From: Bacteroidia bacterium
GTDB lineage: Bacteria; Bacteroidota; Bacteroidia; CAILMK01; JBBDIG01
Length of the DNA: 63,270 nucleotides
NCBI GenBank assembly: GCA_040880525.1
Contig: JBBDIG010000058.1
Coordinates: forward strand, 1 to 63,270
Reading direction: 5' to 3'
The notes beneath the pieces were generated by a model. It saw only the letters and a list, made by a program, of their open reading frames with translations, searched no databases and was not told where the DNA came from. Of the stretch, positions 42,331 through 46,560 are shown one piece after another (within the stretch, counting starts at the first letter, position 1; each line of letters opens with the position of its first letter). The position numbers were made by a program, and so were the translations under genes.

Positions 42331-42361
42331 TTTCCAAAATGTCAAATCACAATTATCTTTG
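42331..42361 (+). promoter_or_regulatory. Promoter of the universal stress protein gene
   Basis: TATCTTTG (42354-42361) fits TAnnTTTG, and TTTC (42331-42334), one mismatch from TTTG, lies 19 bases upstream. The ATG at 42387 follows 25 bases later, supporting that start. Confidence 0.5.
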
Positions 42362-42386
42362 GCCTCATAAACAGAAACGTGACACG

Positions 42387-43295
42387 ATGATCCAACTCAA
42401 ACGCTGGCTTGTAGCCCTTGACAGAACCGAACTTGATGAGACCCTGGTGAACTATGTGAACTTTATCAGTGGCTTGCTCAAACCCGAAAAAATCTATTTT
42501 CTTCACCTTCTTGAAAAGCCTGAAATTTCGGAGGATGCTGGTAATGAATTGCTGCCGGTGGATGAAGAAATTGAAACCACCATGCAAAAGGAGTATGCCC
42601 ATAGGTTTACCGATAAGGACATAGAATTGTCCTTTGAGGTGCGGGAAGGGAATCCTTTTACTGCTACGCTGAAATATTATAAGGACAAGAAAATTGATCT
42701 GGTGATGGTGGGCCGCAAGCACGAAACAAGGGGCAGCGGGATGTTGCCTCAGCGGCTGGCGCGCAAAGTACCCGGCTCTATTATTTTTATTCCGGATACC
42801 GCCAGGCCGCAACTCAACCACATCCTGGTGCCAACCGATTTCTCTGACAATTCATTAGAAGCGACTGAAGAAGCATTATTGCTTGCCCGCAATCTGAATC
42901 ATAATGTTGTCATTCATTTCCAGCACATTTATTCTGTGCCTACCGGATACTATTATGGCGGAAAATCTTATGAAGAATTCGCAGCAATTATGAAAGGCCA
43001 CGCAGAAAAGGACTATGCAAAATTCCTCAGCAAACTGGATACTGCCGGTGTGGATACACGGATCCATTATACCCTGATGGAAGACGAGAATAATAATGAG
43101 CTTATTAACCAGTTGGCTGAAGAAATACCGGCAGATATGATCGTGATGGGGGCCAGGGGAAAAACTGATGTGGCGGCCATGCTCCTCGGCTCCACCACCG
43201 AAAAGTTGCTGCGCATCAACCTGTCAGTACCTAAGCTTATCGTAAAAAAGAAAGGCGACCGCATGGGTTTGCTGGATGCAATTATGAATATTTAA
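42387..43295 (+). CDS. Tandem-domain universal stress protein
   Basis: The 302-residue protein contains two UspA folds in tandem: domain 1 about 1-140 (RWLVALDRTELDE ... VMVGRKHETRGSG) and domain 2 about 145-290 (HILVPTDFSDNSLEA ... MIVMGARGKTDVAAMLLGSTTEKLLR). The second domain keeps the G-2x-G-9x-G(S/T)-like ATP-binding motif; the first is weaker. UspA proteins support survival under starvation and other stress. The frame extends upstream to 42288, but ATG 42387 fits both the fold and the promoter. Confidence 0.9.
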   Translation: MIQLKRWLVALDRTELDETLVNYVNFISGLLKPEKIYFLHLLEKPEISEDAGNELLPVDEEIETTMQKEYAHRFTDKDIELSFEVREGNPFTATLKYYKDKKIDLVMVGRKHETRGSGMLPQRLARKVPGSIIFIPDTARPQLNHILVPTDFSDNSLEATEEALLLARNLNHNVVIHFQHIYSVPTGYYYGGKSYEEFAAIMKGHAEKDYAKFLSKLDTAGVDTRIHYTLMEDENNNELINQLAEEIPADMIVMGARGKTDVAAMLLGSTTEKLLRINLSVPKLIVKKKGDRMGLLDAIMNI

Positions 43296-43395: not shown

Positions 43396-43776
43396 ATGCT
43401 CAAGCACACCCGTCTTTACAGCATCCTTTTTTGTAAATGCCCGCGATGCCACCAGGGGAAAATGTTTAAGAACCCAAATCCTTATGCGCTGAATGACCTT
43501 TTCAAAATGCCGGAAAATTGCCCGGAATGCGGACAGAAATATGACCTGGAGCCTGGATTTTATTGGGGCGCAATGTACGTGAGTTATGGCCTGAACGTGG
43601 GCATTGTGCTTCCGCTGGCGGGGGTTGTTTATTACGTCTGGGACTTTTCCTTTTGGGCTATCCTGGTATCTCTTGTCGTTTTGCAGATCATAGTTACGCC
43701 TTACATCTTCCGCATTTCGCGGGCTATATGGCTCAACTTTTTTGTAGGGTATGATCCCTCAACCCGTAAGCGATGA
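43396..43776 (+). CDS. DUF983 membrane protein
   Basis: The 126-residue protein has a zinc-ribbon-like pair of CxxC motifs (KCPRCHQGKMF and CPECGQKYD), the family signature LEPGFYWGAMYVSYG, and two membrane helices (about 58-76 and 82-102). DUF983 proteins occur in Bacteroidota and Alphaproteobacteria, with no established biochemical role. Its stop overlaps the next ATG by four bases, making it the first gene of a three-gene unit that ends with a MutS-like ATPase. Confidence 0.88.
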   Translation: MLKHTRLYSILFCKCPRCHQGKMFKNPNPYALNDLFKMPENCPECGQKYDLEPGFYWGAMYVSYGLNVGIVLPLAGVVYYVWDFSFWAILVSLVVLQIIVTPYIFRISRAIWLNFFVGYDPSTRKR

Positions 43777-44594
43777 GTTGGGTGCTGATAATATTGACCG
43801 GTATCGTGCTGGCTGCTGTTGTTTTGGGCGGGCCGCTTATCGCAGTGATCACCATTTTTGACCGCTCCCGCACGAAGCTGCGAATTGTTCTCATCACGGG
43901 TATTTTGCTCATTCTCCTGGGTTTTGGGGTCGTCTATTCAGGCCTTGATGAACTGATCGTGAATTTCCTCTTTCCACTCGGAATTTTTAACCTTTTGGTG
44001 TGGGGATTTAAAAAGCACTATAAGCCGGTTCACCGTCATTTTAAATCAGTGAATGAAGAAGCGATAGAAGAAGGTGAACTCAGTGAACTGCGCCTGGAAC
44101 TGAATGAGAATAAGGCCTCAGCGGAGACATTAATGCCTGTTAAAAGCAAAGCCGAAAGGTTGCTCAATATTCCATTATGGTTAAGCTTTGGTATCGGGCT
44201 TGGCCTTATCCTGCTCTTTTTTGAATTTTTAAATAATGAATTAAATTTTGATAATATTACTGGTTGGATATTTACTCTGGTTCTCAATTATTTAATTATT
44301 ATTTCCGGGTTAGTATTTTTTGTATCTGTTTATATTAAAAAGAATTTATCCAAAATAGCCTTTCAGCATCTTATTTTAAATGTGGCACTAACTGCTCTTT
44401 TAATTACGCTGTTTCAAAAAAGCCTGTATTTTTTTGAGCACCTTGCCTGGGATAAAAAGGAGATTTTAGCCAAAACGCTGTTAACCGATTATATAATAAA
44501 CTTTGGTATTGGCGCTATTCTGGGCTATATTCTTCTGCCCGGTAAAAATTTGTTATTTAAAGATTTAACCAAAAGAAACAGAGAAAAACACTAG
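43773..44594 (+). CDS. Polytopic membrane protein, unknown function
   Basis: The 273-residue protein shows about seven hydrophobic helices: roughly residues 2-28, 34-52, 56-75, 136-154, 165-190, 197-213 and 240-257. A charged cytosolic segment separates the first three (about 78-130, rich in Glu/Lys). It overlaps the DUF983 gene by ATGA and is three bases from the MutS-like gene, so all three are co-translated. No family was recognised. The second half is A+T-rich. Confidence 0.75.
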   Translation: MSWVLIILTGIVLAAVVLGGPLIAVITIFDRSRTKLRIVLITGILLILLGFGVVYSGLDELIVNFLFPLGIFNLLVWGFKKHYKPVHRHFKSVNEEAIEEGELSELRLELNENKASAETLMPVKSKAERLLNIPLWLSFGIGLGLILLFFEFLNNELNFDNITGWIFTLVLNYLIIISGLVFFVSVYIKKNLSKIAFQHLILNVALTALLITLFQKSLYFFEHLAWDKKEILAKTLLTDYIINFGIGAILGYILLPGKNLLFKDLTKRNREKH

Positions 44595-44597
44595 CTG

Positions 44598-46415
44598 ATG
44601 GCCACTGATTTACCCAAAGAAGTATACGAGCAGAAACTGCTATCCGCCACCTCTTCTCTCGGAAAGGTAAAGAACCAACTGAACACGATCGTGGTCGCCA
44701 GGCTCATGGTTTTTATTATTGCGATTATTCTTATTGCGCTGACCTTCCGAATTTCCATTCTGATCAGCACATCAATATTTATTGTGGCATCCATTGCTTT
44801 TATATTTCTTGTAAAAAAACATTTAAAACTAAAGGAACAGGAAGCCGATCTGAAATTGCGTCTGCGCATCAACAAGGAGGAAATTGCGTATCTGGAAGGC
44901 GACCTTACCGCTTTTGCTGCGGGAGAGGAATTCAGCAGCCATGAACATTCCTATTCGCTCGATCTGGACATTTTTGGAGAAGGGTCACTTTTTCAAAGCA
45001 TAAACCGCACAGGAACCATGCGGGGAAAGGAACTCCTGGCATGGTGGCTCGCTAATCCGCTGCAAGAAATAGATGAAATAAAACTACGGCAGGAAGCTGT
45101 GCAGGAATTAGCGGCTAAAACTGACTGGCGGCAAAGCTTCAGAGTGCGGACGCTGCGTGAAAATGAAAAACCGGACTGGCAAAAGGAATTGCTGCATTGG
45201 GTAAATCATCCTGTGCAGGTTGTGGACAATGTATTTCTGAAAACAGCACTTTTCGCAATTCCGGTGCTTACTTTTATTTTAATGGGTTTGATGCTGGCAG
45301 GCTATGTATCTTTCTTCGTTTTTCTGGCCTATTTTATTCTTGTGCCCTTCGGTATCACCGGGTTTAGGGTGAAGCGTATTAATCGCATCCACAGCACTTT
45401 GTCAGGTAAGGTAAACCTGCTGCAGCAATATGGCCACCTGTTGTTCCTGATAGAAGGCGAGCATTGGAAAAGCGCACTGGCTACAAAAGAGCAGGAACAA
45501 CTCCGGGAGGCGGGCAGAACGGCAGGCGAACATATCCGGCAATTGGCCCGCCTTGCCTCATCTTTGGACAATCGGTTGAACATGATCGCAGCATTGGTGC
45601 TCAACGGTTTTCTGCTGTGGGACCTGCATTATGTTCGCGCTATCCGGAAATGGCAGGAGGCGCATGGCGGGCATGTGGAACATTGGATTTCGGCCATCGC
45701 GACTTTTGATGCACTCAGCAGCCTCGCGACTTTTGCTTTCAACCATCCCCGTTTTGCTTTGCCGGAGCTGGCTGCTACCGATGATTTTTTGATGGAAACG
45801 CTGGAATTGGGCCATCCGCTTTTGCATGAAAAAGAACGTGTGGATAACAACATCAGCTTCGGAAAAAATGAGCGGTTGTACTTGGTGACTGGCGCCAACA
45901 TGGCCGGCAAAAGCACCTTTCTCCGCACGGTGGGCGTAAATCTGGTGCTGGCCATGAACGGAACGCCTGTATGCGCCCGCAGTTTCAGGTTTGCGCCCAT
46001 CCGCCTGTTTACCGGGATGCGCACGCGCGATTCGTTGCAGAAGCATGAAAGTTATTTTTTTGCAGAGTTAAAGCGATTGCAGCAACTGATCCGGCAGTTG
46101 CGAACAGGAGCGAGGCTATTCATTATTCTTGATGAAATTCTGAAAGGAACCAACAGCCAGGACCAGCACCAGGGATCGGAAGCCCTGATCCGCCAACTGG
46201 TGAAACTGGACGCTTACGGCCTTATTGCTACCCACGACCTTGCGCTCGGCTCCCTGGCAGCAGAATTTCCGCATCTCGCAAATAAACGGTTCGAAGTTGA
46301 AATTCAAAATGATAAACTCAATTTTGATTACAAATTAAAAGATGGTATTTCCCAAAATTTAAATGCCACCTTTTTAATGCGACAAATGGGGATCAGTGAT
46401 TTAAGTGAGCAGTGA
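44598..46415 (+). CDS. Membrane-anchored MutS-family ATPase
   Basis: The 605-residue protein has a C-terminal MutS ATPase domain with Walker A G432ANMAGKST440, MRTRDSLQKHESYFFAELKRL, Walker B FIILDEILKGTNS (D512-E513), and LIATHDLALGSLA (the switch His). The mismatch-recognition and connector domains are absent. It carries four predicted membrane helices in two pairs: about 35-75 (MVFIIAIILIALTF, STSIFIVASIAFIFLV) and about 212-250. Homologues in Bacteroidota are labelled 'MutS-related' with no proven role in repair. The last codons, SEQ and stop, lie inside the heptamer array that starts at 46404. Confidence 0.85.
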   Translation: MATDLPKEVYEQKLLSATSSLGKVKNQLNTIVVARLMVFIIAIILIALTFRISILISTSIFIVASIAFIFLVKKHLKLKEQEADLKLRLRINKEEIAYLEGDLTAFAAGEEFSSHEHSYSLDLDIFGEGSLFQSINRTGTMRGKELLAWWLANPLQEIDEIKLRQEAVQELAAKTDWRQSFRVRTLRENEKPDWQKELLHWVNHPVQVVDNVFLKTALFAIPVLTFILMGLMLAGYVSFFVFLAYFILVPFGITGFRVKRINRIHSTLSGKVNLLQQYGHLLFLIEGEHWKSALATKEQEQLREAGRTAGEHIRQLARLASSLDNRLNMIAALVLNGFLLWDLHYVRAIRKWQEAHGGHVEHWISAIATFDALSSLATFAFNHPRFALPELAATDDFLMETLELGHPLLHEKERVDNNISFGKNERLYLVTGANMAGKSTFLRTVGVNLVLAMNGTPVCARSFRFAPIRLFTGMRTRDSLQKHESYFFAELKRLQQLIRQLRTGARLFIILDEILKGTNSQDQHQGSEALIRQLVKLDAYGLIATHDLALGSLAAEFPHLANKRFEVEIQNDKLNFDYKLKDGISQNLNATFLMRQMGISDLSEQ

Positions 46416-46495
46416 GCAGTTAATCAGTGAGTAGTGAGTAGTGAATAGTGAATAGTGAATAGTGAGCAGTGAGTAGTGAGTAGTGAATAGTGAAC
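46404..46495. repeat. Heptamer array AGTGARY, 13 units
   Basis: Thirteen head-to-tail units of AGTGAGT, AGTGAAT, AGTGAGC or AGTGAAC, with one octamer (AGTTAATC). The array begins within the last four codons of the MutS-like gene and runs 80 bases past it. Because seven is not a multiple of three, slippage would alter the gene's end. Confidence 0.9.
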
Positions 46496-46511: not shown

Positions 46512-46560
46512 TGAACATTGAACGCGGAACACGGAACACGGAACATGGAACGTGAAACAC
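46512..46560. repeat. Second short tandem array, GAACACG-type
   Basis: About six degenerate units of 7-8 bases (TGAACAT, TGAACGCG, GAACACG twice, GAACATG, GAACGTG). It follows the first array after a 16-base gap and stops just before the end of the convergent gene at 46567. Confidence 0.8.

Follow-up and report, generated by a model that had tools for sequence, protein, structure and literature searches.

A MutS-family ATPase with two predicted membrane hairpins represents a widespread bacterial clade

The 63,270-nucleotide stretch of a Bacteroidia genome analysed here (the window) encodes a 605-residue protein that is a MutS-family (ABC-class) ATPase missing the DNA-recognition, connector and clamp domains. 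Two pairs of predicted membrane helices are built into the same chain, and the protein belongs to a membrane MutS clade that is widespread in bacteria, uncharacterised and misnamed, and that constitutes neither a new fold nor a new enzyme class.

Domain architecture and membrane hairpins

The gene is the last of three that lie on one strand in an operon-like packing, with an overlap of 4 nt between the first two open reading frames and a gap of 3 nt before the third. The span of the three (43396-46415) had been given correctly in a first-pass annotation of the window. The features are, by window position:

43396-43776, + strand: DUF983 protein with CPRC/CPEC zinc-ribbon-like motifs and membrane segments (Pfam DUF983, 2.1e-11)
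43773-44594, + strand: orphan 273-residue protein with about seven hydrophobic segments (hydropathy)
44598-46415, + strand: membrane MutS-like ATPase of 605 residues, type A (Pfam, AF2 model, structural match)
44688-44816, + strand: predicted transmembrane hairpin 1, residues 31-73 (hydropathy 2.9/1.8; 121/121 family members; AF2 helices)
44934-45212, + strand: N-terminal part of MutS domain III, residues 113-205 (Pfam, structural match from residue 113, invariant columns)
45228-45371, + strand: predicted transmembrane hairpin 2, residues 211-258, within domain III (hydropathy; 121/121; AF2 helices)
45372-45782, + strand: remainder of domain III with lever-like helices, residues 259-395, no clamp (AF2 helices including 341-382, conservation)
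45783-46397, + strand: ATPase domain V, residues 396-600 (Pfam MutS_V; most conserved part of the family)
45891-45917, + strand: Walker A motif GANMAGKST, residues 432-440 (N434 and K438 invariant in 121 members)
46050-46052, + strand: S485, signature serine of the trans ATP site (profile-aligned with S668 of E. coli MutS; invariant)
46131-46136, + strand: Walker B D512-E513, followed by a GTNS D-loop and, further downstream, H546 (invariant in 121 members)

Pfam searches detected MutS_V (PF00488, 1.9e-27) at residues 429-586 and a partial MutS_III domain (PF05192, 4e-13, 50.5 bits against a cut-off of 34.1) at residues 128-260. Up to an E value of 1 no match was found to MutS_I (PF01624), MutS_II (PF05188) or ABC_tran (PF00005), nor was there any Pfam match to the MutS_IV clamp (PF05190) or to Smr, or any KOW/SMR match; in E. 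coli MutS, searched as a control, the same library recovered all five MutS domains. In a profile alignment to the E. coli protein the clamp region is likewise a gap, in a part of the alignment where local confidence is low. None of the NCBIfam models attains its cut-off, the top family match being MutS itself (NF003810, 152.7 bits with a cut-off of 480), accompanied by TIGR01070 (122.2 versus 641.7), KamC (NF052383, 80.5 versus 300) and MutS2 (TIGR01069, 71.9 versus 400). No variation is seen among the 121 aligned family members at the residues of the composite ATP site (N434, K438, S485, D512, E513 and H546), a finding that, together with the MutS_V match, bears out the earlier statement that the ATPase domain is intact. 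Outside the ATPase, a DLDIFG..SLFQ..NRT pattern is conserved in the N-terminal part of domain III, and W201, W352, W363, H117 and D122/D124 are among the most conserved residues, all of them outside the membrane segments and with W352 and W363 in the lever-like region.

An AlphaFold model of the protein, predicted as a single chain from 26 homologues, has a mean pLDDT of 88.7 and a pTM of 0.88. Structural alignment with VIA-align matches its residues 113-605 to MutS domains III-V at Z scores of about 25-28, with about 390-415 residues aligned in most rows, an rmsd of mostly 3.1-4.5 Å and a matched range of about 268-791 on E. coli MutS. Residues 1-112 lie outside the aligned range of the top structural matches.

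Where is the chain expected to enter the membrane? The assignment is based on hydropathy, flanking charge and the helices of the AF2 model. Hydropathy peaks at residues 30-48, 60-78, 206-224 and 231-249, and both hairpins reach a mean hydropathy of at least 1.5 in 121 of 121 family members, a value that control stretches of the same proteins reach in 0 of 121. In the model, hairpin 1 is flanked by the long helices 6-48 and 54-99, and hairpin 2 corresponds to helices 211-233 and 239-256. Lysine and arginine average 3-4 in the hairpin flanks (1.8 before hairpin 2) and 0.2-0.5 in the loops across the 121 members, and since positively charged flanks tend to stay inside, this distribution would make the ATPase and the two chain ends cytoplasmic. 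Hairpin 1 stands in place of MutS domains I and II. Hairpin 2 lies inside domain III, probably near the expected start of lever and clamp; the profile alignment puts it before the first lever, with the clamp missing, at a local confidence near zero in that stretch. The claim of the first-pass annotation that the recognition domains are replaced by two pairs of membrane helices therefore stands, as a prediction with regard to the helices, considering the missing MutS_I and MutS_II matches, the hydropathy of all 121 members, the positive-inside flanks and the modelled helices. In conservation the transmembrane segments rank near the bottom within the protein (1.2-1.6 bits, as compared to 1.9-2.6 bits for core and ATPase, in the 121-member alignment), and they contain 3-6% charged residues. 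A third, moderately hydrophobic stretch is found in the return-lever region of type A proteins at residues about 331-348 (about 45588-45641), attaining the transmembrane threshold in some type A and some type B members, and it may also touch the membrane.

Family, phylogeny and comparison with known MutS proteins

Matches to the 605-residue protein at E<=1e-30 are found in 93 of 296 sampled genomes of the phylum Bacteroidota, of which 88, the source genome not counted, make up the type A set. Type A proteins are characterised by a transmembrane hairpin on either side of the beginning of domain III, a MutS ATPase and a length of about 590-620 residues, as found in the protein of the window, and this form of about 600 residues with four transmembrane helices occurs in about 30% of the sampled Bacteroidota genomes. 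A scan of bacterial genomes confirmed at least 581 homologous stretches, the best 80 of which are nearly all labelled as Bacteroidota or one of its orders or families. A second form, type B, comprises 536-580 residues (about 550) with about three transmembrane segments, and is found in Bacteroidota and Bacillota, with examples on records of S. aureus (WP_000106330.1), S. epidermidis (plasmid pNuk650) and Ruminococcus. It resembles type A in a profile match (E 8e-63) that extends over TM2, hairpin 2, domain III and the ATPase, and both types share a C-terminal FDYKLK.G..KN.NA motif; it differs in having a single N-terminal hydrophobic segment instead of the first hairpin, in its occurrence in Bacillota and in forming a separate subclade. 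The third group consists of soluble 438-residue MutS-like proteins of Bacteroidota, which share domains III and V and the larger clade (100/98) with type A but do not have membrane helices. Since type A, type B and soluble proteins all occur naturally, what the membrane helices contribute can be tested directly.

In a maximum-likelihood tree of the ATPase region, a branch with 100/98 support splits type A, type B and the soluble group from MutS1 and MutS2. Each group occupies one side of a branch, type A being monophyletic at 99/98 (26 rows), and the union of types A and B reaches a support of only 92/80. The protein of the window falls outside the MutS2 clade (100/99). Its genome contains three MutS_V genes, the other two encoding a normal MutS1 and a normal MutS2, and eight further genomes carry MutS1, MutS2 and the membrane kind together.

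With MutS1, that is bacterial MutS and MSH2-MSH6, the protein shares the fold of domains III and V and all residues of the composite ATP site, but it is devoid of the mismatch-recognition, connector and clamp domains and of the C-terminal tail, and two transmembrane hairpins are added. MutS2 proteins have a layout of core/lever, clamp, ATPase, KOW and SMR. Like them the 605-residue protein has a MutS ATPase and no domains I and II; unlike them it has neither clamp nor KOW/SMR match, carries membrane helices and belongs to a separate clade. KamC, the reactivase ATPase of lysine 5,6-aminomutase, is similar in having a MutS-type ATPase, put to use in a role that does not involve DNA, though the score to its model is far below the cut-off, as given above.

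Members of the clade are named 'MutS family DNA mismatch repair protein' at NCBI. The anatomy of these proteins contradicts this label, and functional inferences drawn from it are likely to be wrong. No account of a membrane MutS was found in the literature searched; the classification of ABC ATPases by Krishnan et al. 2020, cited in PMC9164220, reportedly deals with unusual recruitments of MutS and may include the clade.

Several further loci came to light in the survey. One genome (G099) contains seven MutS_V genes, among them two adjacent soluble forms of 438-441 residues and two type B membrane forms. The nukacin plasmid pNuk650 carries a type B protein of 538 residues, two genes from which a CAAX protease is encoded, and a MutS-annotated protein of 536 residues, close in size to type B, has been described on an epidermin plasmid of S. 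epidermidis (PMC8765612). Two staphylococcal records, one of phage PhiSepi-HH3 and one of an S. aureus 'plasmid unnamed2', have in common the housekeeping gene order rex, ABC-F, MutS-like gene, tsaD, rimI, tsaB, tsaE and ilvD, and seem to be stretches of chromosome deposited under phage and plasmid names.

Possible function and neighbouring genes

What could a MutS motor do at the membrane? Our preferred, still tentative reading, with a probability of about 0.4, is that the protein acts as a dimer docked to the inner membrane, where its ATPase would drive the remodelling of a protein complex. The protein would reside in the inner membrane with its N- and C-termini and its ATPase in the cytoplasm and, judging from what is known of MutS, would form a dimer with composite ATP sites at the shared interface, in which the ATP cycle would move the core and lever helices. 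Less certainly, this motion might take apart or reshape a protein complex on the cytoplasmic side of the membrane, acting on its target as MutS2 does on stalled ribosomes instead of scanning DNA for mismatches. A protein complex as target is suggested by the loss of the DNA-contacting domains, by near-neutral cytoplasmic regions (net charges of -1.2, +0.6 and -0.4 per 100 residues in the core regions, versus +5.0 for the clamp of E. coli MutS) and by precedents for MutS motors acting on targets other than DNA: MutS2 splits ribosomes with its ABC ATPase (PMC10897456), and MutS-like proteins encoded near B12 enzymes have been proposed to act in the assembly of B12-enzyme complexes (PMC9164220). 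Docking to the membrane and a cytoplasmic partner are favoured over a substrate channel, because the transmembrane segments are weakly conserved and the key conserved residues are located outside the membrane.

A more far-reaching version, which we consider doubtful, has the MutS motor working through the membrane, the motion of core and levers being passed directly to the four transmembrane helices of each subunit. Such an energised machine would be of a class distinct from ABC transporters, could extract or separate membrane proteins or move a substrate, and would span Bacteroidota and, as type B, Bacillota including staphylococci. If the protein is indeed a membrane motor, MutS ATPases, whose known targets include DNA and ribosomes, would reach the membrane as well, and would do so in about 30% of the Bacteroidota genomes sampled and in part of the Bacillota.

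MutS ancestry and the intact MutS-type ATPase could also serve a DNA transaction at the inner membrane, in which the protein tethers or processes DNA in a mode unlike that of MutS, be it incoming DNA, chromosome-membrane contact or anti-recombination, and some type B copies are indeed found on staphylococcal plasmids. In MutS, domains I and IV contact the DNA, and levers and clamp encircle it. Since both of these domains are absent, the membrane helices in domain III lie close to the expected position of the DNA-encircling levers and clamp, and the cytoplasmic cores are near neutral and not positively charged as the E. coli clamp is, this explanation appears unlikely; nor does any DNA-repair gene recurrently adjoin the gene, topoisomerase or gyrB-type genes accounting for just 4 of 20 downstream genes. 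An ABC-transporter-like machine, with the MutS-type ATPase dimer driving its own eight membrane helices and moving a lipid, peptide or ion, would be in line with the ABC-class nature of MutS ATPases, with the invariant composite-site residues and with ATPase and hairpins sharing one chain in 121 of 121 members. We regard it as distinctly improbable, as the membrane segments are poorly conserved and hold few charged residues, each chain provides only four helices (about three in type B), and neither an ABC_tran match nor a conserved permease or binding-protein partner is found.

That the protein could be an ordinary mismatch-repair MutS paralogue merely anchored to the membrane is hardly credible, even though MutS is its top family match and the name given to clade members. 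The score is far under the cut-off, domains I, II and IV are missing, and the protein is placed outside both MutS1 and MutS2 in the tree, with an intact MutS1 in the same genome; the earlier remark that mismatch repair does not account for this motor thus holds, the genome having separate MutS1 and MutS2 proteins. A further reading is a dedicated lineage system made up of DUF983 protein, seven-helix protein and MutS motor; the two upstream genes had been taken for operon partners, and the conservation of the three-gene unit had been named as a check and its absence as a refutation. In favour of such a system are the tight packing on one strand and the co-occurrence of DUF983 with type A over the phylum sample (44 of 88 type A genomes versus 18 of 207 others). 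Within the class, however, the co-occurrence is not significant (43 of 58 versus 7 of 14, p = 0.11), and in 44 of 44 other genomes possessing both genes they are unlinked, being on separate contigs or no less than 74.8 kb from each other. Neither neighbour was found in 80 family neighbourhoods, most with flanks of up to 10 kb, or at 8 loci of near relatives. The seven-helix protein is an orphan without a match in Pfam, NCBIfam or PHROG; at E<=1e-5 none of 295 other genomes of the phylum has a homologue, and 40 relatives yield a single marginal match (6.5e-4) containing three stops. Furthermore, a close upstream gene is common in the family, but of many unrelated kinds: 54 of 77 loci have a same-strand gene within 150 nt upstream (median gap among same-strand upstream genes 35 nt), with YjbR (10), ThiF (7) and Zn_peptidase_2 (3) among these 54. 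The conserved unit was therefore rejected, and a dedicated system is very improbable. Of the description of the neighbours, the DUF983 assignment with its CPRC/CPEC motifs, the approximately seven hydrophobic segments and the tight packing are retained, and the conserved functional partnership is not; both genes are probably co-transcribed passengers.

Any other conserved partner was rejected as well, the largest cluster of open reading frames near the gene being present at 11 of 80 loci and the upstream and downstream families being mixed (YdjM, for example, in 4 of 20 downstream genes). The MutS-like gene behaves as an independent unit, becoming part of whichever operon receives it. A defence system was dismissed too, PADLOC returning weak generic ATPase matches only.

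Directly 5' of the DUF983 gene and on the same strand lies a double universal-stress-protein gene (42351-43295), and a Usp gene also immediately precedes the type A MutS gene at 2 of 54 loci. An RNA fold of the region 3' of the MutS-like gene revealed nothing. The DNA at this end is repetitive: a 7-bp AGTGAGT repeat of 12.7 copies (46404-46493) runs from the last codons of the gene into the intergenic region and is followed by a GAACACG array at 46513-46552. Comparable AGTGAGT runs are present on four further contigs of the genome (4, 17, 25 and 28).
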